Below are positions 2 through 11,874 of a DNA stretch of 12,096 nucleotides, piece after piece (position 1 is the stretch's first letter; each line of letters opens with the position of its first letter). The position numbers and the translations under genes are program-made. Under the pieces are notes generated by a model, which saw only the letters and a list, made by a program, of their open reading frames with translations, was not told where the DNA came from and made no database searches. Source of the stretch: Rhodospirillales bacterium (GTDB taxonomy: Bacteria; Pseudomonadota; Alphaproteobacteria; Acetobacterales; Acetobacteraceae); the NCBI GenBank assembly GCA_018971905.1, contig JAGWZS010000031.1:1-12096 (forward strand), given 5' to 3'.

Positions 2-256
2 CTGGCTTATGGGCTCAACCGCGCGCTGGGTGAGGCGCATAACATCGCCTGCCCCTCGGCGTTGATTGGCGCCTCGAATTTTTTTGAGCTGGCGGTGGCC
101 GCCGCCATCAGCCTGTTCGGCTTCAACTCCGGCGCGGCGCTGGCAACAGTTGTCGGTGTGCTGATCGAAGTGCCCGTGATGCTGCTGACCGTCAAACTCG
201 TGATGGCAACCCAAGGCTGGTATGAACGTGCGGATGGCGTCAAAACCCATGGCTGA
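2..256 (+). CDS. acr3: Acr3-family arsenite efflux permease, C-terminal part (5' end outside window)
   Basis: This is the last 84 codons of an open frame that enters from the left edge. It encodes a membrane protein that pumps arsenite (AsIII) out across the inner membrane. The tail carries the conserved Acr3 stretch around [11 protein letters not shown], followed by [20 protein letters not shown], and contains two hydrophobic helices that would be the last membrane segments. The ArsB name is also used for this family, but the sequence is of the Acr3/BASS type and not the larger ArsB antiporter. The stop (254-256) lies inside the start of arsH, so the two genes are translationally coupled. 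Any regulator of this unit lies upstream of the window. Confidence 0.93.
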
Positions 257-965
257 GACATCCTTGCCCAATCTCGATGAAGCGTGCTTCAGGCCGATTG
301 ATGAATCGCGCCTGTTCGATGCGCCCCGGCTGTCACACAAGCCGCGCGTTCTGCTGCTCTATGGCTCCGTGCGGGTGCGCGCCTTCAGCCGTCTGGTGAC
401 GGAGGAAGCCGCCGCGATTTTGCAAACTCTTGGCGCCGAGACACGCAGCTTCAACCCGTCTGGCCTGCCTCTGCCCGATGATGCCGGGGCAGATCATCCG
501 AAAGTGCAGGAATTGCGGGATCTGGTGAGCTGGTGCGAGGGCATGGTGTGGTGCTCGCCCGAGCGACATGGCGCCATGACCGGGATCATGAAGGCGCAGA
601 TTGACTGGATTCCGCTGGCGCTCGGCGCCGTGCGCCCGACACAGGGCAAAACCTTGGCGGTGATGCAGGTTTGCGGTGGTTCGCAGAGCTTCAATGCGGT
701 CAACCAGCTGCGTATTCTGGGCCGCTGGATGCGCCTGATCACCATTCCCAACCAATCCTCCGTGCCAAAAGCCTTCACCGAATTCGATGAGAATGACCGG
801 ATGAAGCCATCGCCTTATTACGACCGCATCGTGGATGTGATGGAGGAGTTGGTGAAGTTCACTCTGCTGACACGCGGTTGCGCGGATTATCTGGTGGACC
901 GCTACAGCGAGCGCCGGGAAAATGCCGAAGAACTTTCCAAGCGGGTCAACCAGCGCGCGATCTAA
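222..965 (+). CDS. arsH: ArsH, NADPH-dependent FMN reductase / organoarsenical oxidase
   Basis: ArsH is a cytoplasmic flavoprotein of the NADPH-dependent FMN reductase fold. Characterised members oxidise trivalent methylated or aromatic arsenicals to less toxic pentavalent forms. Seen here: the phosphate-binding loop [11 protein letters not shown] at residues 47-57, the [17 protein letters not shown] block at 113-129, and the [13 protein letters not shown] block at 152-164. All are typical of ArsH rather than of generic flavodoxin-like reductases. The length (247 aa) is normal. Three ATGs are possible, at 222, 234 and 249. The first has AAGG at 213-216 with 5-nt spacing. The third starts directly at the conserved [10 protein letters not shown] and overlaps the acr3 stop by only 3 bp, so either could be real. 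The gene converges on ybhR and the stop codons overlap. Confidence 0.95.
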
Positions 966-2071
966 ACCGAACGCTTGCGGAACAGCCAACCCGCCGTGAT
1001 GAGGCTGATGAGCGCAAGGGCGGTCATGGCGGCGAACTGGGGCAGCAGGGTGGTGAGGCTGGGCTGCTCGAGAAAGCAGTCACGGATGACCACCAGCGCG
1101 TAGCGCATGGGATTGATGAGGGTGAGATCTTGCACAAAGGCCGGCATGTTGGCGATGGGCGTGGCGAAGCCCGAGAGAATGATGGACGGCACCATGAACA
1201 GGAAGGCGCCGAGCAGCGCCTGCTGCTGGGTGGCGGCGAGTGAGGAGATCATCAGCCCGATGCCGGTAACCGAGGCGATGAACAAAAGCAGCCCAGTATA
1301 GAGCAGCGCCAATGAGCCCAGCAGCGGCACGCCGAACCATAAATGCGTGGCCAGGATGATAACCGTGCCCTCAACGAGGCCAATGATAAGGCCGGGCAGG
1401 CTTTTGCCCAGTACAATGTCGATGGGCCTGAGCGGCGTAACGAGGGTCTGGTCGAACGTGCCGGCCTCGCGTTCCCGTGCGACGGAGAGCCCCACCACCA
1501 GCAATGTGACGACCTGGGTGAGAAGTGCGACGATGCCGGGAATGATGAACCAGTGCGAGTCGAGCGTGGGATTATACAGCGCGCGCGGCACGAGTTGTGC
1601 GGGCGGCGGCACGCCGCCATGCGCGGCGGCCCAGCTCTGGCTGGCGGAGGTGATGATGTCGCTGGCATAGCCCAAGATTAGCAAAGCGGTATTGGAATTA
1701 CGGCCATCGACGATGATTTGCACCGGTGCTGGCTGGCCAAGCAGCAGATTGCGCCCATAACGCGGGTCGATGTCAAGCACCATCTCCACGGCACGTGAGT
1801 CGATGAGTTGCCTGATGCGCTCTGGACTATGCAATACCGCGACCTGCTGGAAACTTGGCGCGCCGACGAAATCCGCCACCAGATCGCGCGAGATGGTGGT
1901 TTGATCTTGGTCATAAACCGCGAAGGGCACATGGTTGAGATCGAAGCTGGCGGCATAGCCGAACACGACAAGCTGAATGAGCGGCGGGCCGATCAGCACC
2001 ATGCGGCTTTTGCCATCGCGCAAGATGGCGAGAAACTCCTTGATGACCAGAGCGAGCAGACGGGCCAGCAT
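962..2071 (-). CDS. ybhR: ABC-2 type permease, YbhR-like subunit of drug/metal exporter
   Basis: Inner-membrane permease of 369 aa with the ABC-2 layout: a short cytoplasmic start, one membrane helix at about 24-42, a long periplasmic domain to about 172, then a cluster of five or so helices to the C-terminus. The cytoplasmic coupling motif [13 protein letters not shown] (198-210) matches the ATPase-contacting segment of YbhR/YhhJ-type permeases. It should pair with the neighbouring YbhS-like permease and be powered by the YbhF-like ATPase. It starts 3 bp after the ybhS stop and has AGAGG about 10 nt before the ATG. It is the last gene of the - strand operon and its stop overlaps that of convergent arsH. 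The substrate cannot be read from the sequence; E. coli YbhFSR has been linked to cation and drug efflux. Confidence 0.88.
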
Positions 2072-2074
2072 GGT

Positions 2075-3196
2075 TCAGTCGAGCCTCTTGCGCGCGGCCA
2101 GCCGCGCCAGACCCAGAAAGATCACCGCCATGACCAGCAGGGCGAACAGATTGGGCAGGATGACGGACCATACCGTGCCGGCCAGAAACAGACTTTGCAG
2201 AATGGCCACAAAATAGCGCGCCGCGACGATATGGGTGAGCAGTTGGATGGGTGTGGGCATGCTGGAAATATCGAATATAAACCCTGAAAGGATGAAGGCC
2301 GGCAGGAAGGTGGTGATGATGGCGATCTGCCCGGCGACGAACTGGTTTTTGGCCACGGTGGAAATCAGTAGCCCCATGCCGAGCGAGGCGAGCATGAACA
2401 GCGACGAGGCTAGGCCAAGCACGATGAGCGAGCCCAGCAGCGGCACGCCAAACAGCCCAGTCGCGATCATTACCGAGGCCACCATGCCCCCCATGCCGAG
2501 CAGGAAATAGGGAATGATCTTGGCGATCAATATCTCATTCATGCTCACTTTGGTGACCATCAACGCTTCCATGGTGCCGCGCTCCCATTCACGCGCGATG
2601 ACAAGCGCGGTGAGCAACGCGCCGGTGAGGGTCATGATGACGGCGATAAGCCCTGGCACCAGATAATCGCGGCTGCTGACCGCCGGGTTGAACCAGATGC
2701 GCGGCTCGAGATCGATGGGCTCAGGATTGGCAACGCCCGCCAACGCGGCCTGCTGCGCCACCCAATCCGCCCAGCCTTGTTCGACATAATTCTCGATCAG
2801 TCGGGCATTATTGGCGTCGATGCCGTTGACGAACAGGCCGATGGCCGGGCTTTGGCCTGCGGCAAGCTTACGGGCGAAATCACCTTGCAGCCAGATGAAG
2901 CCATCGATATCGCCATTGCTCATGGCCCGCGCCGCGGCCGGTTCATTCACGAAATCCTGTGGGGTGAAATAGGGCGAATGGCGGAATTCGGCGGTGAGGC
3001 TCGTGGCCGCGGCACTTGGTTCATCAACCACCAGCCCCAGCCCGACATGGCGGGCATCGAGCGACACGCCATAGCCGAACAATAGCAGCAGCATTGTGGG
3101 CAGAATGAAGGCAATGGCGATGGAGGAGGGGTCGCGCAGGATTTGCAGGGTTTCCTTGCGGATAAGGCCGCGCAGGCGCATCAGCATCGCGTTCAT
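2075..3196 (-). CDS. ybhS: ABC-2 type permease, YbhS-like subunit of drug/metal exporter
   Basis: Inner-membrane permease of 373 aa, built like its downstream neighbour. There is a helix at about 25-43, a periplasmic domain from about 45 to 175, and a helical bundle from about 178 on. The coupling segment AREWERGTMEALM lies at 201-213, and the WERGTMEALM wording is characteristic of the YbhS/YhhJ branch. It is paralogous to YbhR, and the two would form the heteromeric channel. Its ATG (3194-3196) overlaps the TGA of the ATPase gene in an ATGA junction, so translation is likely coupled. No strong ribosome site is visible, which fits coupling. Confidence 0.88.
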   Translation of the reverse strand: MNAMLMRLRGLIRKETLQILRDPSSIAIAFILPTMLLLLFGYGVSLDARHVGLGLVVDEPSAAATSLTAEFRHSPYFTPQDFVNEPAAARAMSNGDIDGFIWLQGDFARKLAAGQSPAIGLFVNGIDANNARLIENYVEQGWADWVAQQAALAGVANPEPIDLEPRIWFNPAVSSRDYLVPGLIAVIMTLTGALLTALVIAREWERGTMEALMVTKVSMNEILIAKIIPYFLLGMGGMVASVMIATGLFGVPLLGSLIVLGLASSLFMLASLGMGLLISTVAKNQFVAGQIAIITTFLPAFILSGFIFDISSMPTPIQLLTHIVAARYFVAILQSLFLAGTVWSVILPNLFALLVMAVIFLGLARLAARKRLD

Positions 3197-4992
3197 GCCG
3201 CTTGCCCGCTTTGCTGGGCGCCATTGGCCGCGATGAGGGCAACAAAGGCGTCCTCCATGGTTGGCGCGGGCAGTTCGGCCGTGCGGGCGGCGTTTTTAAG
3301 GTCTTCTGAGGTGCCAGCGGCCAGAATCCGTCCCTGCGCCATGATGACCAGATGGTCGCAATATTCGGCCTCATCCATGAAATGGGTGGTCACCAGCACG
3401 GTCACGCCCTGGTCCGCCAGCGCGTTGATGCGCCGCCAGAACTCGCGCCGGGCCAGGGGGTCCACGCCGGAAGTGGGTTCATCGAGGAACAGCACGCCGG
3501 GCTCGTGCATGAGCGCGCAGGCCAGCGCCATGCGCTGCTTGAAGCCCAGCGGTAAATCACGGCTGGTGGCGTCGGCGTAATCGCCAAGCTCGAATTCACT
3601 GAGCGCCCAGGTGATGCGTTGCGCGCGCCGCGCCCCGCGCAGTCCGTAAGCCGAGGCGAAGAAGCGCAGATTCTGGATCACACTGAGATCGCCATAGAGC
3701 GAGAATTTTTGCGCCATATAGCCAAGCCTGCCGCGCGCAGTGGCGGCGGCGGTGCGCAGATCAAACCCATCCACGCTCAGCCTGCCGCTGGTGGCGGGCA
3801 GCAGGCCGCACAACATGCGGAAGGTGGTGGATTTACCAGCACCATTCGCACCCAGCAGGCCGAAGATCTCACCACGTTGCACGGTGAAACTGATGTCATC
3901 GACCGCCGCGAAAGCGCCGAAGCGTTTGGTGAGGTGATCAACTTCGATGACAGCTTGTTGCGGCGCTGACATGGCGGCAGGCGGAGTTGGTGTGGCCAGG
4001 GCTTGGATGCCCGTTTTGGCGCGCAAGAGATCGACAAACCGGTCCTCGAAACGCGGCGCGATGGGGCCAAGCGTGAGGCCCGTGATGCCGGGCGGCTTGA
4101 TCGCCTCTGTCGCCGCGCCCGTATCCAGCACCAGGCGCACGGCTTCGCCCTGGATCAGCGCATCCATCACGCCGGGCGTGGAAGAAAGCGCTGTTTGCAG
4201 CACGCGTTTGGGCGTGCCATCCGCGCGGGCCAAAAAGCTGCGCCCCGCCATGGCCTGGGTGAAATCCCCTGGCTTGCCCGCGCCGATCAACTGCCCCTCA
4301 TGCAGCAGCAGCACTTCATCGCAGCGTTCCGCCTCGTCGAGATAGGCGGTGGAGAGCAAAACGCTCATGCCGGCACCGCGCACGAGATGATCGACGATCT
4401 GCCATAGCTCTCGGCGCGACACGGGATCAACGCCAACCGTCGGTTCGTCGAGCAGCAAGAGCCGGGGCGGGCGGATGAGCGTGCAGGCCAGACCCAGTTT
4501 TTGCTTCATGCCGCCCGAGAGCCGGCCCGCCAGGCGCGTGGTGAAGGGCTGCATGCCGGTCATGTGCAAAAGCTCGGCATAGCGGCCGGGGCGCGCGGCC
4601 ACAGGTACGCCCTGCAAATCGGCGTAAAGGTCGAGATTCTCCTGAACGGTCAGGTCTTCATACAGCCCGAAACGCTGCGGCATGTAAGAGATCATGCCTT
4701 GAACCTTAAGGGGTTCGGCGCGCACATCCGTGCCAAAAACGCTGATCTTGCCGTCATCGAGGCGGAGCAGCCCGGCGATGAGCCGCATCAGTGTGGTCTT
4801 GCCCGCGCCATCGGGGCCGATCAGCCCGGTCACCAGCCCGGGCGCGGTTTGCGCGCTCACCCCCTCAAGCGCGGTGACCACGCGCTTGGCCACGCGGAAC
4901 CGGCGCGTGACCCCCTCCAGGACCAGCGCTTTTGGGACCAGCGCTTTTGGCGCGGCTTCAGTTGGCGGGGGCATTGGGGCCGCCGCACACAT
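3193..4992 (-). CDS. ybhF: YbhF-like ABC exporter ATPase with two fused nucleotide-binding domains
   Basis: Cytoplasmic ATPase (599 aa from the ATG at 4992) that drives the YbhS/YbhR permeases. Domain 1 has Walker A GPDGAGKT (Lys65), signature LSGGM (158-162) and Walker B LLLLDE (178-183). Domain 2 has Walker A GANGAGKS (Lys387), a degenerate signature LPLGF (480-484), Walker B VLFLDE (500-505) and the switch His537. The switch position of domain 1 is Ala216 (STAYLDEA). The open frame extends to a TTG at 5037, overlapping ybhG by 80 bp; ATGs at 4992 or 4974 are more likely because homology begins only near VLEGVTRRF. None has a convincing ribosome site, so coupling to ybhG is probable. The spacer before domain 1 contains a duplicated PKALV pair. 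Gene order matches E. coli ybhGFSR. Confidence 0.9.
4921..4950. repeat. Perfect 15-bp tandem duplication inside ybhF
   Basis: The unit GACCAGCGCTTTTGG occurs twice head to tail (4921-4935 and 4936-4950) with no mismatch. It is in frame and duplicates the five residues PKALV in the N-terminal linker just before the first ABC domain, at residues 15-24 counted from the ATG at 4992. Flanking bases do not continue the repeat. This looks like a recent slippage event in a tolerant linker. Confidence 0.95.
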
Positions 4993-6019
4993 CCGCGCCC
5001 CGTGCCGCGCCCGCTGTTTTCGGCTGGGTGAGGCCAATGCTCACGGTCGCGGGCATGCCAAGCTGTAACTGGCCTTGCGGGTCGCAAGCATACACACGGA
5101 GCTGATAGACGAGCTGGGCGCGCAAATCGGGCGTCTCGACCGTCTTGGGCGTGAATTCGGCGGTGGGGGAGATGTAACCGACCCAGCCGCGATAGGTTTT
5201 GCCCGGATAGGAATCCGTGCTGATGCCGGCTTCCATGCCCAGCCGGATGCGGCCCAGATCGCTCTCGGGCACATAGGCGCGCACCCACAGCGGATTGGTG
5301 AGCGCGATGACATAAACCGGCGCGGAAGGCGAGGTCATGTCGCCGGGTTCCTGCACGCGCTCTTCGATTATGCCATCGGCGGGGGCGTAGAGTTTGGTGT
5401 CTTTGTATTCCTGCGCGGCCAGGGCCGCGTTGGCTTTCGCGGCATCATAGGCACCCTGGGCTGCGGCAATATCCTCGGCGCGCGGGCCTTTGACGGCCAA
5501 TATGTAAGCCTGTTTGGCGGCTTCGTAATTTTGTTTGGCGTTGAGGTAGGCGGCCTGGGCGTCATCGCGCTGCTGGATGGTGGCCGCGCCGCCGGGTGCC
5601 AGCGTGGCATAGCGGCTGAAGTTGGCCGCATCGTTCTCGTAGACCACCTCCAGCGCATCCATCTGCGCCTTGGCCTGGGCAATCTGCTCTGGGCGCGACC
5701 CAGCAAGCAGTGCGGCCAGAATTTGCTGCTGATTGGTGGCTTGGCCGTTGGCGGTGGCCAGCGCGTCCGCAAAGCGGCTTTGATCGAGCGTGGCAATCAG
5801 TTCACCTTTATGAACAGCATCGCCCTCCTGCACCAACATGTGGTCAATCCGCCCTGAATCGTAAAACGCGGCATAGACCTCGCGGATATCGACATTGCCA
5901 TAGAGCGTGAGCCGGTTGGCGTCAGGTGCCGCGCGCCAATGCTGATAAGCGCCCACACCCAGCCCCGTCACCAGAATGACGGCGGCCACCAAAATGAGCC
6001 GTTTGCGTTTGACTGCCAT
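4958..6019 (-). CDS. ybhG: YbhG-like periplasmic membrane fusion protein (HlyD family)
   Basis: Adaptor of 353 aa that links an inner-membrane ABC exporter to an outer-membrane channel. Residues 7-25 form the N-terminal membrane anchor after a basic MAVKRKR start. A split lipoyl domain follows (about 38-75, closing near 210-235), with a long Ala/Gln-rich helical hairpin from about 78 to 205 expected to form the coiled coil. A beta-barrel region ends in FTPKTVETPDLR and LVYQLRVY, which closely resembles the YbhG/YhiI branch. LTLYGNVDIREV near the N-terminus is another YbhG hallmark. The TGA (4958-4960) lies inside ybhF. It starts 51 bp after the thioredoxin-like gene; only a distant AGGGA precedes the ATG. 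No outer-membrane TolC-type gene is present in the window, so a partner encoded elsewhere is presumed. Confidence 0.9.
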   Translation of the reverse strand: MAVKRKRLILVAAVILVTGLGVGAYQHWRAAPDANRLTLYGNVDIREVYAAFYDSGRIDHMLVQEGDAVHKGELIATLDQSRFADALATANGQATNQQQILAALLAGSRPEQIAQAKAQMDALEVVYENDAANFSRYATLAPGGAATIQQRDDAQAAYLNAKQNYEAAKQAYILAVKGPRAEDIAAAQGAYDAAKANAALAAQEYKDTKLYAPADGIIEERVQEPGDMTSPSAPVYVIALTNPLWVRAYVPESDLGRIRLGMEAGISTDSYPGKTYRGWVGYISPTAEFTPKTVETPDLRAQLVYQLRVYACDPQGQLQLGMPATVSIGLTQPKTAGAARGADVCGGPNAPAN

Positions 6020-6070
6020 GATCGTGCTTCGTCCCTGTCAGATGCCGCTTTGGGTGTTATAATCAGATCA

Positions 6071-6307
6071 TCACGCGGCGAGCCAGGCGGCAACATCCTC
6101 GGGCTTTGGCAGGCCACCAGCATGTACGACCTTGCCGTCGATCACGACTCCGGGCGTTGAAACCACGCCATAACCCGCGATGGCTGCATAATCCGCGACT
6201 TTTTCAATGCTCACCTGCACGCCGAGCTTGGCGGCTTCGGCTTCCACCATTTCGGCGGTGGCGATACAGCGTTTGCAGCCAGGGCCAAGGATTTTGACGC
6301 TCTTCAT
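6071..6307 (-). CDS. Small thioredoxin-like redox protein (GPGCKRC, TM0996/MTH895 type)
   Basis: A 78-residue thioredoxin fold lacking a signal peptide, hence cytoplasmic. The active-site motif is GPGCKRC, with Cys11 and Cys14, and a cis-proline follows at STP (Pro52) in VVSTPGVVIDGKVV. The length and wording match the small redox-active disulfide proteins that are often encoded beside UPF0718/ArsP permeases. A GGAG ribosome site sits 7 nt before the ATG, and the gene begins 15 bp after the permease stop. It may keep the permease cysteines or an arsenical substrate reduced; that role is inferred from the repeated neighbourhood rather than shown by the sequence. Confidence 0.9.
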   Translation of the reverse strand: MKSVKILGPGCKRCIATAEMVEAEAAKLGVQVSIEKVADYAAIAGYGVVSTPGVVIDGKVVHAGGLPKPEDVAAWLAA

Positions 6308-6322
6308 GAGAGAACTCCAAAT

Positions 6323-7384
6323 TTACGAGAACAGGAAGTTGAACAGATAGCCCACGGCGATGATGCCAATGGTCACGATAACGATAAAAACCGCCAGCAG
6401 CCGAAGGGAGAGAACCTTACGCAGAATAATCCACTCAGGCGCCGAGAGCGCCGTGACTGACATCATGAACGCCAAGGCCGTGCCCAGTGCGGCGCCCTTG
6501 CCGAGCAGGGCGATGACCACCGGAAAAATCCCCGCCGCGTTGGAATAAATCGGCACGCCGATCAGCACGACGAGCGGCACGGTCCACCAATGGCCATGCC
6601 CCATGATGTTCGCCAGCATCTGGGTTGGCGCATAGCCATGGATGAAGGCCCCCGCGGCAACTCCCGCGATAATCCAACCCCAAACCCGGCCGAATATGTC
6701 GCCCATGGCTTCAAGCCCGGCATGGATACGATCGACAAATCTCAGCCGCGCGGGAGAGGGCGCGTCAGGGTTGGTGCGGATCTCGCGCACCCATTGTTCC
6801 AGCCAGCCTTCCAGATGCAGCCGGCCGATAACCCAGCCCGCGGCGATGGCTACGGCCAGCCCGAAAGCGAGATAGGTGAGGGCCACGCGCCAGCCCACCA
6901 GGGCAAAGAGCAGCCCCAGCGCCACCTCGTTGATCATAGGAGAGGCGATGAGGAAGGAAAACGTCACGCCCAGCGGCACACCCGCTGAAACAAAGCCAAC
7001 GAATAGCGGCACGGCCGAGCAGGAGCAGAACGGCGTGACGATGCCTAAGCTGGCGGCGGCGATGTTGCCAAGCCCCTCACGCTTGCCAGCCAGAAAGGCG
7101 CGCGTACGCTCGGGCGAGAAGAAGCTGCGCACCATGCCCATGCCAAACACGACCAGCGCCAGCAGCATCAGAACTTTCGGTGTCTCGAACACGAAGAAGC
7201 GCAGAGTTGCATCGAGATGCCCGCCAGGGGTGACGGGCAGATGCGACACCAGCCAGTCAGAGACGGGCTGCAACTGCCAATAGACGACAAACCAGGCGCA
7301 AAGCGCCAGGATCATGCCGCCGACCAACAAGGCGTCGCGGGAGTGTTTCTGGACTGGTGGCGGGGTGAAGGTTGAGCTGCTCAT
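6323..7384 (-). CDS. UPF0718/ArsP-type permease
   Basis: Polytopic inner-membrane protein of 353 aa with roughly eight hydrophobic helices. The family hallmark TPFCSCSAVPLFVGF lies at 117-131 with Cys120 and Cys122, followed by GVPLGVTFSFLIASPMINE (135-153). A second, related half begins around 230 and includes GVPIYSNAAGIFPV. Characterised ArsP proteins export trivalent organoarsenicals, but the family is broad and other metal substrates are possible. The start is fixed by context: the ATG at 7382-7384 overlaps the arsR TGA as ATGA. The frame stays open upstream to 7618, but that extension is Arg/Pro-rich and lies over arsR, so it is not coding. A charged loop (about 190-225) separates the halves. 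Confidence 0.92.
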   Translation of the reverse strand: MSSSTFTPPPVQKHSRDALLVGGMILALCAWFVVYWQLQPVSDWLVSHLPVTPGGHLDATLRFFVFETPKVLMLLALVVFGMGMVRSFFSPERTRAFLAGKREGLGNIAAASLGIVTPFCSCSAVPLFVGFVSAGVPLGVTFSFLIASPMINEVALGLLFALVGWRVALTYLAFGLAVAIAAGWVIGRLHLEGWLEQWVREIRTNPDAPSPARLRFVDRIHAGLEAMGDIFGRVWGWIIAGVAAGAFIHGYAPTQMLANIMGHGHWWTVPLVVLIGVPIYSNAAGIFPVVIALLGKGAALGTALAFMMSVTALSAPEWIILRKVLSLRLLAVFIVIVTIGIIAVGYLFNFLFS

Positions 7385-7695
7385 GCGGCGGCCTTGGTGT
7401 CTGGAGTGTTTTGCGCGGCCAGGGCCAAAGCGGCCTCGACAAGGGTTGTGACGGCGGGCGGAATATTGGCGGCCCGCCGGTAGCGCACCCACTGGGCGTC
7501 TCGCCGGTCGGTCACCAACCCGGCATTTTTGAGCGCCGCCATGTGGCGTGACATGCGCGATTGAGTGACGCCGAGGCGCTGCATCAGCTCGCACACGCAA
7601 TGTTCCTGGCCGTCCCACAAGAGCGCCAAGGCAGCAAGCCGTGTTGGCTCAGCCAGGGTGGTCAGGATGTCGCAGGGGTCTATGGCTCTGATCAT
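7381..7695 (-). CDS. arsR: ArsR-type metalloid-responsive repressor
   Basis: Winged-helix repressor of 104 aa that should leave its operator when AsIII or SbIII binds. The N-terminal LAEPTRLAALALL segment and the recognition helix near VTQSRMSRHMAALKNAGLV (43-61) are typical of ArsR/SmtB. The sensor motif is EHCVCELM (31-38) with Cys33 and Cys35, matching the ELCVCDL motif of E. coli-type ArsR; the third Cys of that site is Met38 here. Cys8 is a further candidate ligand. Its stop overlaps the permease start. The predicted transcription start is at or beside the ATG and no Shine-Dalgarno is visible, so the message may be leaderless. It is probably autoregulated together with the six genes downstream. 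Confidence 0.95.
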   Translation of the reverse strand: MIRAIDPCDILTTLAEPTRLAALALLWDGQEHCVCELMQRLGVTQSRMSRHMAALKNAGLVTDRRDAQWVRYRRAANIPPAVTTLVEAALALAAQNTPDTKAAA

Positions 7696-7730
7696 GTCAT
7701 AAATATGCGCCTAAGCGCATAAGCGCGCAA
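7696..7730 (-). promoter_or_regulatory. Promoter and putative ArsR operator of the seven-gene efflux operon
   Basis: Read on the - strand there is TTGCGC (7730-7725), a 17-nt spacer and CATATT (7707-7702), a plausible sigma70-type promoter. An inverted repeat TATGCGC-CTAA-GCGCATA (7704-7721, 7-bp arms) lies between the two boxes and overlaps the -10, where a bound repressor would block polymerase. A direct repeat TAAGCGC is also present (7712-7718 and 7720-7726). The start of transcription, about 7 nt past the -10, would fall at the arsR ATG. Confidence 0.7.
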
Positions 7731-7895
7731 GGTGGAGGGTAAAATTTTCCCGGCCTCACATGTCAGGATAGAGGGAGTATTGTTATGCAGCTTATTTGGC
7801 GCACTCGTTCCGCCACAAGTGTACCCAGCCCTGATGCCGGGGCGCCACCACAGCGTAAAGTATGCACCACAACCTTGACCATCCTGGCGCCTCGT
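7696..7895. other. Gap between the thiolase gene and arsR
   Basis: This 200-bp stretch separates two - strand genes. Its arsR-proximal end holds the promoter and inverted repeat described separately. A near-palindrome GGGTAAAATTTTCCC (7737-7751) sits just upstream of the -35. No clear hairpin with a T-run was found after the thiolase stop, so read-through from the thiolase into arsR cannot be excluded. An open frame on the + strand here runs antisense into the thiolase and looks non-coding. Confidence 0.5.
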
Positions 7896-9083
7896 TCAGG
7901 TGATGCGCTCAAGCGCCAGGGCGATGCCTTGGCCGCCGCCAATGCACAGTGTCACAACCCCGCGCCGGAGGTCATCACGTTGCACGGCATGCAGCAGCCG
8001 GGTGGTCAGCACCGCGCCTGTCGCCCCGATCGGATGGCCATGAGCAATGGCCCCGCCCTCCACATTCACAACATCCTCGGCCAGCCCCAGATCGTGAATG
8101 ACGGCCAGCACGATCGCGGCGAATGCCTCGTTGATCTCGAAGCGGTCCACATCGCTGATCCTCCAGCCTGCACGGTCCAGCGCCTGACGCACGGCGGGCA
8201 CCGGGCCAAGCCCGAAATAGCCAGGCTCCACCGCGCCAATCCCATAGGAGACCAGCCGCGCCATTGGCTTTAACCCATGCCGCGCGGCCCATTCCGCCTC
8301 CGCCACCACCATGGCCGCGGCCCCCGTGTTCAGCCCAGGCGCATTGCCAGCCGTGATAGTGCCATCCTTGCGAAAGGCAGGCTTGAGCGCGGCGAGGGAT
8401 GCAAGTGTGGTGTCTGGCCGGTTATGCTCATCCTTCTCAAACCGGACTGGCCCCTTGCGCCCGGAAAGGATGACCGGCTCGATCTCGGCCAAAAACTTGC
8501 CGGCCGCCTGCGCCGCGGCGAAGCGTGATTGCGAGCGTTCCGCCCAGCGGTCCTGCGCGGTACGGTCAATGTGATATTTGGCCGCGAGATCCTCGGTATG
8601 CCAGCCGGAATGCTGACCGGAGAAGGCGTCGTTAAGGCCATCCTCCAGCATCGCATCAACCAGCACGCCCGACCCTATGCGATACCCCCAGCGCGCCTCA
8701 CGTTGCAGATAGGGCGCGAGGTCCATGTTCTCCATCCCGCCCGCGAGGGCGCTATCGATAAAGCCGAGCATGATCTCTTGCGCGGCGGAGACAATCGCCT
8801 GCGCGCCGGAGCCGCAAACGCGGTTCACGGTCATCGCGGGCACCTCCACGGGCATGCCTCCACCGATGGCGGCTTGCCGGGCGGGATTCATCTTCGTTCC
8901 AGCCTGGATCACGTTGCCCATCGCCACGGTGCCGATTTCTGCGGCGGGAAGCCCTGATCGCTCCAGCACGGCCCGCACCACCGCAGCTCCCAGCTGCGGT
9001 GCCGGTGTGGTCTTCAGTGTTCCCCCATAGGTTCCGATCGCAGTGCGGACCGGCGCGCAAAGAACAATTTTGCGGTGCGCCAT
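7896..9083 (-). CDS. Acetyl-CoA C-acetyltransferase (thiolase)
   Basis: Cytoplasmic thiolase of 395 aa, the usual size, expected to condense two acetyl-CoA to acetoacetyl-CoA or run the reverse cleavage (PHA/ketone-body or fatty acid metabolism). Catalytic features are complete: nucleophile Cys90 in NRVCGSG, Asn318 in NEAFA, His350 in GHPIGATGA and Cys380 in CIGGGQG. The frame extends to a TTG at 9089, but the ATG at 9083 is chosen because GGGAGG (9098-9093) lies 9 nt before it and only 3 nt before the TTG. The CoA-loop segment reads GNAPGLNTGAAA where GNASGLNDGAAA is usual, so the Ser that contacts substrate in the Zoogloea enzyme is Pro249 here. An FNR-type box lies upstream. No other PHA or beta-oxidation gene is adjacent. 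Confidence 0.92.
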   Translation of the reverse strand: MAHRKIVLCAPVRTAIGTYGGTLKTTPAPQLGAAVVRAVLERSGLPAAEIGTVAMGNVIQAGTKMNPARQAAIGGGMPVEVPAMTVNRVCGSGAQAIVSAAQEIMLGFIDSALAGGMENMDLAPYLQREARWGYRIGSGVLVDAMLEDGLNDAFSGQHSGWHTEDLAAKYHIDRTAQDRWAERSQSRFAAAQAAGKFLAEIEPVILSGRKGPVRFEKDEHNRPDTTLASLAALKPAFRKDGTITAGNAPGLNTGAAAMVVAEAEWAARHGLKPMARLVSYGIGAVEPGYFGLGPVPAVRQALDRAGWRISDVDRFEINEAFAAIVLAVIHDLGLAEDVVNVEGGAIAHGHPIGATGAVLTTRLLHAVQRDDLRRGVVTLCIGGGQGIALALERIT

Positions 9084-9138
9084 GGACAAGGCCTCCCAAT
9101 GTACCAGTAATCTCTAACAAATGGCGTGGGTGACAGCC

Positions 9139-9152
9139 TTGATGTTGATCAA
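9139..9152 (-). promoter_or_regulatory. FNR/Anr/FixK-type binding site upstream of the thiolase
   Basis: TTGATGTTGATCAA is a perfect match to the TTGAT-N4-ATCAA consensus of Crp/Fnr-family oxygen or redox regulators. Its centre is about 62 nt upstream of the thiolase ATG. A class II arrangement, with the site centred at -41.5, would put the transcription start near 9104 and a weak -10 (TAGAGA on the - strand, 9116-9111) at the right distance. Confidence 0.68.
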
Positions 9153-9378
9153 CCAGGAGGTGCAGGCTGGTGTTACATTCTCTTTGATAACTGGATCGCC
9201 CTTCCCCCGGTGATATTGGTGAGGGTGCTCTATTTGCGAATGTTTTCATGCAGTCTGTGATGCCGCCCTGCCATTAACGCCCCCTTCATGAAATGAAGCG
9301 CCGCTGTTTGCATATCTGTGTCAGCCTGTCTGCTGGAATCACGGAATTTGGAGCATTGAGCACCATGGGGTGTATGCG

Positions 9379-9553: not shown

Positions 9554-9778
9554 ATGCTGATGCGAACATCACTGTTTCTCTCCAACCGTTCGCAGGCCGT
9601 GCGGTTGCCCAAGGCCGTGGCTTTCTCCGAGGGGGTCCACGAGGTGGTCATCGTTCCCGATGGCCCCCGCCGGATCATCGCGCCCGCCGAAGCGGCTTGG
9701 GATGATTTCTTTGATGCCCAAGGCATCGATCTTGACGCGCGCAAACAGCCAGCAATGCAGGAGCGCGAGCGTTTTTGA
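9554..9778 (+). CDS. vapB: VapB-type antitoxin (AbrB/SpoVT-like)
   Basis: A 74-residue antitoxin that binds and blocks the VapC nuclease and represses its own operon. The N-terminal swapped-hairpin DNA-binding region contains SNRSQAVRLPKAVAF (10-24), which is diagnostic of VapB/MazE-like proteins. The C-terminal part, with WDDFFDAQGID (about 49-59), should be the flexible toxin-binding segment. AGGGGG (9543-9548) lies 5 nt before the ATG at 9554; a second ATG at 9560 with 11-nt spacing is possible. Its TGA overlaps the vapC ATG by one base. Confidence 0.93.
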   Translation: MLMRTSLFLSNRSQAVRLPKAVAFSEGVHEVVIVPDGPRRIIAPAEAAWDDFFDAQGIDLDARKQPAMQERERF

Positions 9779-10179
9779 TGTTGCGCTATATGCTGGACAC
9801 CAATTTCTGCATCCGTGTTCTCCGGGACAGACCCAAGGGGCTGAGGGCGCGCTTCAATGCCAATGCCGAAGCGTTGTGTCTCTCTGATGTGGTCCTGTAC
9901 GAATTGCTCTATGGTGCAGAACGCTCAAACGACCCGCCGCGCATTCGCCGTGAAGTTGAGCATTTTGCAGCCCGGCTGACAATGTTGCCCTTCGACAGCG
10001 AGGCAGCGGCGCATTCAGCCGATATACGGGGTGATCTGGAGCGGCGGGGGAATGTGATCGGCCCGTACGATTTGATGATCGCCGGGCATGCGCGCAGCAG
10101 AGGCTTGGTTGCCGTTACCGGTAATCTGGGCGAGTTCCAGCGCGTGGTGGGCCTGAGGTGTGAAGACTGGCTGGTATAA
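9778..10179 (+). CDS. vapC: VapC-type toxin, PIN-domain ribonuclease
   Basis: A 133-residue PIN-domain endoribonuclease. VapC toxins halt translation by cutting specific RNAs, with initiator tRNA the target in several enterobacterial members. The acidic metal-binding residues are all present: Asp7 in YMLDTNFC, Glu42 in LYELLYGAE and Asp98 in GPYDLMIAGHA, with Asn116/Glu119 in VTGNLGEF as the last part of the site. The toxin therefore appears intact. The frame opens one codon earlier at a TTG (9775), but the ATG at 9778 in the TGATG junction with vapB is the natural start. AGGAG at 9759-9763 is rather distant, consistent with coupling to vapB. Confidence 0.93.
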   Translation: MLRYMLDTNFCIRVLRDRPKGLRARFNANAEALCLSDVVLYELLYGAERSNDPPRIRREVEHFAARLTMLPFDSEAAAHSADIRGDLERRGNVIGPYDLMIAGHARSRGLVAVTGNLGEFQRVVGLRCEDWLV

Positions 10180-10530: not shown

Positions 10531-11874
10531 ATGCCGACCGTCGAGCTGTTGGGTGGAAAGGTTCAGATTTATCAGCGCGGCAATAGCCGCTTCTGGCAGG
10601 CGCGGGCGTCTGTTGGCGGCAAGCAGCGCCAGTTTAGCACCAAAGCCGAAACACAGGAGCTGGCCGCCAAGGCGGCGGAGAGCTGGTACTTCAAATTGCA
10701 CGGTCAGGCCGAAGCCGGCGTGCTGAATGACCGTCCAACCTTCAGGAAGGCGGCTGATCAATTCCTCAAGGAATACGGGGTGATCACCGAGGGCGAGCGC
10801 TCGGAGAAATGGACCGAGAGCCACGGCATCCGGTTGCGGGTGCATCTGCTGCCGTTCTTTGGGGCGTTGCCGTTGGACAAGGTGACGCCCGGCAAGGTGC
10901 AGGAATACCGGGTGCATCGGATGACCAGCTATGCGGCGCCCAACCCTCACTCCAAAAGTCAGCATAAGCCCAAGGCCAAGCCGCCGGCCCGCAGCACGCT
11001 GCACGATGAGGTGGTGACGCTGCGCATGGTGCTCAAAACCGCCATCCGCCATGGCTGGTTGGAGTATCTGCCGGATTTGACGCCGCCTTACCGGACCCAG
11101 GGCAAAATCACCCACCGGCCCTGGTTCAGCCCCGAGGAATATAAGCAGCTTTACGAGGCGGCGCGGGCTTATGCGAAGGAACCGTTCCGCTCACACCTCA
11201 AGTGGAATGCTGAGCAGGTTTATGACTTCGTGCTGTTCATGGCCAATACCGGGTTGCGGCCGGATGAGGCGTTTAATCTGCAGCATCGGGATGTGACGAT
11301 TGCCGCGGGTGACGGCAAGCAGGAGCTTCTGGAAATTGAAGTACGCGGCAAGCGCGGTGTTGGGCATTGCAAGAGCATGCCGGGGGCTGTGCGGGTTTAT
11401 CAGCGGCTGCTGGCGCGGGCTAAGCCGGTGCAGGTAGAATCCCGCCGCGAGCGGCAGCACCGGCGCAGGACTGGCGGGGACGCACCTGTCCCGTCCGCGC
11501 CCGAATATCCGGGGGCGACGGATCTGGTCTTCCCGGGCAATCACATCAAGCTGTTCAATAATCTACTGGCCCGGACTGGGCTCAAGCTGGATCGGGATGG
11601 CAAGGCTCGGACCGCCTATAGTTTGCGCCATACCTATATCTGCATGCGGCTGATGGAAGGGGCGGATATCTATCAGGTTGCCAAGAATTGCCGCACCTCG
11701 GTTGAGATGATCGAGAAGCATTATGCGATCCATCTGAAGAACACGCTCGATGCCACCGCCATCAATGTCATGCGCAAGCGGGCCGGGAAAGCCAAGACAA
11801 AAGCTGGTGCGGGGAAGGGCGCAAGGAAGGCGGGAGAGGGCAGTGCGGAATTGGACGGAGATGGGGCGGATTAG
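10531..11874 (+). CDS. Tyrosine recombinase / phage-type integrase
   Basis: Site-specific recombinase of 447 aa. After an N-terminal arm-binding-like region (1-60) comes a SAM-like core-binding domain (about 70-180), then the catalytic domain. Catalytic residues that can be placed are Arg243 in NTGLRPDEAFNL, Lys274 in VRGKRG, Arg366 and His367 in YSLRHTY, and the nucleophile Tyr398 in IEKHYAI. The first His of the usual HxxR box is Tyr363, a substitution I recall from some integrases of this class. The GH pair often found nine residues before the Tyr is not recognisable (NCRTS). The C-terminus ends in a Lys/Ala/Gly-rich tail from about 415. AAGGGGG lies 4 nt before the ATG. Its position beside the tRNA-fMet fragment indicates that it acts at that site. 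Confidence 0.92.
   Translation: MPTVELLGGKVQIYQRGNSRFWQARASVGGKQRQFSTKAETQELAAKAAESWYFKLHGQAEAGVLNDRPTFRKAADQFLKEYGVITEGERSEKWTESHGIRLRVHLLPFFGALPLDKVTPGKVQEYRVHRMTSYAAPNPHSKSQHKPKAKPPARSTLHDEVVTLRMVLKTAIRHGWLEYLPDLTPPYRTQGKITHRPWFSPEEYKQLYEAARAYAKEPFRSHLKWNAEQVYDFVLFMANTGLRPDEAFNLQHRDVTIAAGDGKQELLEIEVRGKRGVGHCKSMPGAVRVYQRLLARAKPVQVESRRERQHRRRTGGDAPVPSAPEYPGATDLVFPGNHIKLFNNLLARTGLKLDRDGKARTAYSLRHTYICMRLMEGADIYQVAKNCRTSVEMIEKHYAIHLKNTLDATAINVMRKRAGKAKTKAGAGKGARKAGEGSAELDGDGAD

Follow-up and report, generated by a model that had tools for sequence, protein, structure and literature searches.

Can a metalloid-responsive repressor gene stand at the head of an adaptor-ABC export system, and if so, how old is such a union and what could it serve? 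This question is raised by a 12,096-bp stretch of DNA from a Rhodospirillales bacterium of the Acetobacteraceae (GenBank contig JAGWZS010000031.1, C266 in our set), analysed over its full length and here called the window, which is one entire contig of a fragmented source genome that is 81% complete. On its minus strand, arsR, arsP and a gene for an ArsE-family thioredoxin-like protein (together the head) are followed by four genes for an HlyD-type adaptor, a fused ATPase and two ABC-2 permeases (the exporter, or pump). Both halves, ars cassette and ABC exporter, are known kinds. We consider it probable that they form one ArsR-headed transcription unit, a fusion of an arsR-arsP-arsE cassette with a four-gene exporter of the ABC-2 kind, and that this unit is induced by metalloids through the mechanism proposed below. 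Gene content and gene order are directly observed, as are the recurrence of the string in another family and as fragments within the genus, and the purifying selection on exporters that mostly lack the head.

The arsR-headed gene string

The string opens with arsR (7381..7695, - strand), encoding an ArsR-family repressor with a CVC motif (PF01022; NF033788, 82.3 bits against a cut-off of 55), and upstream of it lies an operator-like perfect inverted repeat, TATGCGC-TTAG-GCGCATA, with arms of 7+7 (7704..7721). The start of arsP (6323..7384, - strand) was taken as ATG 7384, the mechanical open reading frame (ORF) beginning at GTG 7618. Its product combines the PF03773 domain of ArsP_1/UPF0718 permeases (213 bits, scanned as ORF 6323-7618) with a TPFCSCS motif, which contains the C(S/T)C signature reported for ArsP in PMC4435449. 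For this permease no NCBIfam model scored above its cut-off, a SaoE-type efflux permease was considered and rejected (NF040736, 115.6 bits against 325), and no solved structure was matched by sequence at E 0.001. The thioredoxin-like protein (6071..6307, - strand) carries its CXXC as GCKRC and exceeds the cut-off of the MTH895/ArsE model TIGR00412 (81.9 bits against 62). A 51-bp spacer without a - strand promoter-like site (6020..6070, - strand) leads to the gene for the HlyD/YbhG-like periplasmic adaptor with cysteines C312 and C345 (4958..6019, - strand; HlyD_D23). The fused two-domain ATPase in YbhF position (3193..5037, - strand; PF00005 in two stretches) comes next, and the string ends with ABC-2 permeases in YbhS position (2075..3196, - strand; PF12698, 158 bits) and YbhR position (962..2071, - strand; PF12698, 136 bits, and PF01061, 102 bits), both of which contain ABC2_membrane_3.

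From arsR to the last permease the junctions measure -4, +15, +51, overlap, -4 and +3 bp, whereby the overlap depends on an uncertain ATPase start, the first ~20-35 residues being poorly conserved. Hereby, the seven - strand genes, their order and every junction given in a preliminary description of this DNA are confirmed, and its notion of a single arsR-headed string uniting an ars cassette with an exporter is supported: as in ars operons, arsR stands first and the genes are co-directional and close-packed. The same description had placed a promoter with an inverted repeat in front of arsR only. The repeat was recovered, while a scan for sigma-70-like consensus promoters found none on the - strand across 5900-9300, upstream of arsR included, so that a promoter at this position has to be presumed. 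Control of the entire string by ArsR would fit this map.

YbhF carries a double ATPase domain, and the window likewise combines a fused double ATPase with two ABC-2 permeases. The similarity of adaptor and ATPase is to YbhG/YbhF and RbbA-type proteins, but both score under the NCBI equivalog cut-offs, the adaptor with 329.8 bits against 393 for PRK03598 (NF002939), which we take to be the YbhG model, and the ATPase with 537.5 bits against 1050. Thus, 'YbhGFSR-like' is a correct name for the exporter and 'YbhGFSR' is not. Given the adaptor score, and with no outer-membrane factor seen when 13 window proteins were scanned (71 ORFs listed), the earlier designation as a complete YbhGFSR is not supported either. 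E. coli YbhGFSR (YbhFSR) has the same set of adaptor, ATPase and two ABC-2 permeases and reportedly exports tetracyclines and cations (PMC7190983); the window system differs from it by an adaptor below the YbhG model cut-off, by two invariant cysteines in this adaptor and by the arsR at its head. One of the solved structures to which the adaptor is related by sequence is that of EmrA, a multidrug adaptor.

C312 is present in 20 of 20 clade members, and the tail cysteine, which sits in an otherwise variable adaptor tail, in all 19 that were aligned; a cysteine is likewise present in the tails of genome G907 and of Azoarcus, which were followed up to the stop. No cysteine occurs in five YbhG-like adaptors of related genomes (G007, G034, G012, G032, G041). 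The pair is a possible clue to the substrate, or it could form a plain disulfide. It is no mark of ars linkage, since both cysteines are found in the adaptors of Methylovirgula pHY1 and Azoarcus pAZKH, the two nearest plasmid HlyD matches, around which no ars gene is annotated over 9 kb.

Head remnants in the genus and recurrence outside it

Is the union of head and exporter peculiar to this strain? The adaptor occurs in 15 of 37 genus genomes including that of the window, in 16 copies; the 14 other genomes hold full-length close relatives of it with 67-97% identity. A contig scan with the single HlyD gave three loci (L025, L026 and L027), which are those of G035, G016 and G022 and were not double-counted. 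The four exporter genes stay together except at the contig ends of G022 and G023 and in a broken second copy of G009, and their surroundings differ between most genus genomes. Among the 16 copies, the head is intact once (the window), cleanly deleted once, represented by clear fragments in six, by weak ones in three and by a non-significant one in a further copy, and leaves no trace in four.

The clean deletion is that of G035, the nearest relative. With the same flanks (thiolase upstream, arsH-acr3 downstream) and an hlyD that is 97% identical, it is without the 1792 bp between two 7-bp direct repeats (left, 7833..7839; right, 6041..6047, CGGCATC on the - strand). G021 retains the operator, including its ATGCGC/GCGCAT core arms, and approximately the first 20 codons of arsR in a match that ends 20 bp before hlyD (blastn E 9e-17), which is expected if arsR and the exporter were formerly co-transcribed. 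Thioredoxin pieces precede hlyD in G001 (two; E 2e-19 and 9e-12) and in G016 (one; E 2e-6). In G017 (L036), an arsP stretch (135 bp, 64%; E 2e-6) at -473 to -340 from hlyD is probably a decayed arsP; first put down to chance, it was counted after a control run, in which 400 windows of the same loci gave a best E of 7e-4. Weak matches in L031 (-2287), L038, L046, L048 and L028 (E 7e-4 to 0.005) lie in or beyond this control range and were left uncounted.

A thioredoxin profile (ten sequences gathered, nine used after one with a stop was dropped; 2000 control windows) gave empirical p values of 0.0005 for G001, 0.001 for G003 and 0.0005 for G016; a reverse-frame match in G023 (p 0.025) was not counted. 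When hlyD upstream regions were scanned for thioredoxin tails (1500 control windows, maximum score 43), G001 reached 63, G003 51, G016 93 and the second copy of G009 98, and these four tails stop 50-53 nt before hlyD, compared to 51 in the window. Over the relatives, thioredoxin tails end 50-56 nt before hlyD, with 71 in G011. Since thioredoxin fragments are similarly spaced before hlyD in other genomes, the thioredoxin-hlyD junction of the window is unlikely to be an assembly artefact.

Two further features of these loci were observed. In the broken second exporter copy of G009 (C94, L122 5975-6699), a tail of thioredoxin, pieces of hlyD and the end of a permease gene are merged. In G011, G002 and G023 (L040, L042, L043), what appears by eye to be a tRNA-like 3' end lies just upstream of hlyD, as at genomic-island insertion sites.

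The exporter itself is conserved. For its four genes, dN/dS between the window and G035, G021, G001, G003, G016 and G009 amounts to 0.06-0.20, with no internal stops; all six partners are without an intact head, and a pairwise dN/dS is a time average that cannot place the selection after the loss. The intact frames in all six argue for ongoing use.

Outside the genus, the order is intact in G588, of a family that we infer to be Beijerinckiaceae-type. Here arsR-arsP-thioredoxin is followed after ~400 bp by hlyD-ATPase-permease-permease, with 63-75% identity gene by gene, and a promoter scan of the gap between thioredoxin and hlyD found none. In the family of G588, ArsP is found in 14 of 199 genomes (E 1e-60) and the exporter adaptor in 4 of 198 (E 1e-85, ten candidates scored per genome listed). 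G808 shows arsP-thioredoxin-thiolase-...-NodT factor-hlyD-ATPase-permease on one contig, with ~4 kb from thioredoxin to hlyD. The NodT-type outer-membrane factor (L150 3520-5049; TIGR01845, 391.5 bits) stands immediately before hlyD and with the hlyD exporter makes a complete tripartite set in this genome. A similar outer-membrane-factor ORF, recognised by eye, precedes hlyD in G968 (L165 1-939) on a contig too short to judge ars linkage, and in G886 and G907 the exporter is present and not ars-linked. In a FastTree phylogeny of the exporter, the genus copies form one clade (support 1.00) beside Beijerinckiaceae copies, with the window, G035, G021, G001, G003 and G016 nested together (0.74-1.00; two deeper nodes 0.10 and 0.22); as a tree of the exporter genes only, it does not separate vertical descent from transfer within the genus.

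The arsR-arsP-thioredoxin head, by itself, is a common and widespread cassette. ArsP occurs in 58 of 398 genomes of a phylum-wide sample (E 1e-50), and thioredoxin lies within 1.5 kb of ArsP in 27 of 28 new loci, the best of that sample; an hlyD relative does so in one (L094, G588), a count from which a more distant exporter would escape. Cassettes of the arsR-arsP-arsE type match the head in gene content and order, and among the 28 loci such an exporter relative lies within that distance in this one only. Examples are Cereibacter azotoformans pORIO3, in which arsR-permease-thioredoxin is followed by rhodanese-thioredoxin-CcdA, and Comamonas sp. C11, with permease-thioredoxin behind ars genes; the likeness to ArsEFG consists in the NCBI name MTH895/ArsE of the thioredoxin family. 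Within the genus, ArsP is present in the window genome (G000) and in G025, where the 18 kb examined hold arsR-arsP-thioredoxin and not this exporter.

Recurrence of the gene order, on which the preliminary description had made its reading depend, was found: G588 has the intact order, G808 has head and exporter linked, and genus genomes have fragments (six strong, three weak, one not significant). Since relatives carry head fragments and G588 carries an intact head, the join of head and exporter is old. We conclude that the fusion is ancestral in the genus and that the pump persisted through repeated losses of the head; a recent placement of the exporter under metalloid control, as suggested before, is not supported.

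Flanking genes

Downstream, the exporter genes are convergent with arsH (222..965, + strand; TIGR02690, 398 bits against a cut-off of 292), with a 4-bp overlap. Beyond it lies the C-terminus of acr3 (2..256, + strand; TIGR00832, 88 bits, profile positions 261-326 of 327), which scores under the full-length cut-off because the gene is cut by the contig start. The exporter, running into these opposite-strand genes, is thus flanked by ars units on both sides. acr3 and arsH also adjoin the module in G035 and G021, and in G001 they lie ~3 kb downstream, with arsH split into two frames.

Upstream of arsR, the window carries a BktB-like thiolase gene (7896..9089, - strand), which is also found upstream in G035, cut there by the contig end, and in G009 (L041 3722-4903), where a weak thioredoxin tail lies between thiolase and hlyD. 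At E 1e-150 the thiolase is confined to the window and G009 among 38 genus genomes, the cut copy of G035 missing the threshold. Of 13 family loci read, several of them cut by contig ends, two (L142 6435-7616, L150 1246-2430) have it next to the arsP-thioredoxin head, and the recurrent thiolases are 69-75% identical. Three of 25 plasmid regions listed with the thiolase were opened and held no annotated ars genes. Taken together, it is suggestive that the thiolase travels with the ars module. In G009, the genes upstream of the thiolase (L041 928-3632) encode ArsR, a VOC protein resembling ArsI/CadI (57.3 bits against a cut-off of 116), an ABM-like protein, CMD and OsmC, possibly an organoarsenical cluster.

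The remainder of the window contains a gene pair for a MazE-like antitoxin (just under the Pfam cut-off) and a VapC of the tRNA(fMet)-specific endonuclease family (9554-10179), as well as an ORF of 447 amino acids (10531-11874) that by eye looks like an integrase of the tyrosine-recombinase kind, has no Pfam or NCBIfam match and may be the sign of a mobile island. The window gave no match to Rfam at gathering thresholds, nor in a search for tRNA genes.

Possible function and significance of the union

In the mechanism that we propose, metalloid binding would release ArsR from the palindrome at 7704-7721, and the transcript would continue through the 51-bp spacer into the exporter genes. To judge from their families, ArsE would maintain its substrate, a thiol or a metalloid, in the reduced state, and an arsenical would be moved through the inner membrane by ArsP. 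Together with a NodT/TolC-type channel encoded elsewhere, the ABC exporter would expel some toxic compound that appears alongside metalloid stress; this compound may be an arsenical, an antimonial or a thiol conjugate of either, and need not be any of them.

Several observations weigh against a metalloid-induced single unit. The head is intact in only 1 of the 16 genus exporter copies, and just two linked cases, G588 and G808, were found outside the genus; the ~400 bp between thioredoxin and hlyD in G588 could house a separate promoter. Of 385 genomes sampled evenly over the class, 12 have ArsP (E 1e-50) and 11 have this HlyD (E 1e-60, with no more than five candidates scored in nearly every genome listed), and the two co-occur solely in the window genome. 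Among the remnants, the arsP stretch of G017 is weak as protein (tblastn E 0.06), and an arsR profile of four sequences gives G021 only p 0.013, with controls that include real arsR genes. The tails of G011, the main copy of G009 and G002 are short and score 39-40 (p about 0.005 each, these copies belonging to one clade and not being independent), that of G023 scores 27 and is not significant (p 0.15), and no head trace was found before hlyD in G025, G022, G008 and G033 by blastn, profiles or tail scan. Moreover, most of the genomes with the pump have no ArsP, the pump alone being by far the commoner case, which weighs against a tight partnership of the two; the division of labour between ArsP and pump that had been envisaged is not supported by ArsP in 2 and the adaptor in 15 of the 37 genus genomes. 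As the pump is kept without ars genes, its substrate is possibly unrelated to arsenic. Export of arsenicals by the pump is hypothetical, and so is that of the organoarsenicals or thiol conjugates put forward in the preliminary description.

It is a serious possibility, to which we give somewhat less than an even chance, that the exporter is a general stress or drug pump that became joined to the ars cassette in shared resistance islands, so that the promoter is common to both and the substrate is not. The flanks vary among most genomes, the exporter is retained and under purifying selection where the ars head is not intact, and the plasmid relatives on pHY1 and pAZKH lie apart from annotated ars genes; a relation of the adaptor to EmrA and the tetracyclines and cations reported for E. 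coli YbhFSR (PMC7190983) would also suit such a pump. However, the same join exists in two families and its spacer is conserved in the genus; three further copies have acr3 and arsH adjacent or close by, and a fourth has an ArsR/ArsI-like cluster in front of it. Rather unlikely, in our estimation, is an arrangement of two transcription units, in which the exporter has its own promoter and the ars head is merely upstream. The wide gap in G588 favors it, and in most relatives the exporter, being without an intact head, must be driven otherwise; yet the window gap of 51 bp holds no - strand promoter-like site (weak evidence, as the scan found none before arsR either), and in G021 the arsR operator and start lie close before hlyD.

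The clean junction of G035 first suggested a recent insertion, in which arsR-arsP-thioredoxin jumped between thiolase and hlyD in the window strain only and produced a 7-bp target duplication. G035 does have these flanks and lacks the cassette, which in the window lies between 7-bp direct repeats. Nevertheless, this course of events is highly improbable and was set aside, given that thioredoxin, arsP or arsR fragments stand at the same place in G001, G003, G016, G017, G021 and G009 and that G588 is intact; in addition, no transposase gene was recognised inside the stretch, the ends of which were checked for inverted repeats by eye only. Fragments in relatives and the intact G588 require an earlier head, and G035 is therefore better read as a deletion. 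We also regard as improbable a dedicated ars-linked tripartite exporter, in which ArsP and Acr3 would load the periplasm with arsenicals, the adaptor would take up the metalloid or thiol-bound metalloid by its cysteine pair, and a NodT-type channel would provide the exit. If true, this would be a primary-active two-membrane arsenical exporter able to replace ArsP/ArsE, and such a replacement would account for the repeated loss of the head with the pump kept.

How does the single ArsR-headed unit, which we prefer, compare to known ars operons? In a survey of over 700 transporters in ars operons, ArsY (Acr3), ArsB and ArsP lead and less than 1% are ABC transporters, namely 5, all with ArsY (Acr3). 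The presence of an ABC transporter in an ars operon is thus known, if rare, and the accessible part of this survey (PMC4435449) describes no adaptor-ABC set with ArsP and thioredoxin. A literature search over titles and abstract starts of open-licence papers gave no account of this composition among the matches listed.

In conclusion, arsR and a full adaptor-ABC set here stand in one gene string. This union is old, and its repeated dismantling, in which the pump was spared, can be read from gene fossils. Since the head was lost several times and the exporter was retained, the latter must be of use to the cell in the absence of ArsP, ArsE and an ArsR in cis, and the repeated loss of ArsP/ArsE suggests that the pump functions without them. 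The natural series of exporters that are intact with their head, beheaded or joined to an arsR operator lets the handling of metalloids by tripartite ABC pumps be tested. An operon can hence shed its regulator and first genes while its tail stays under selection.

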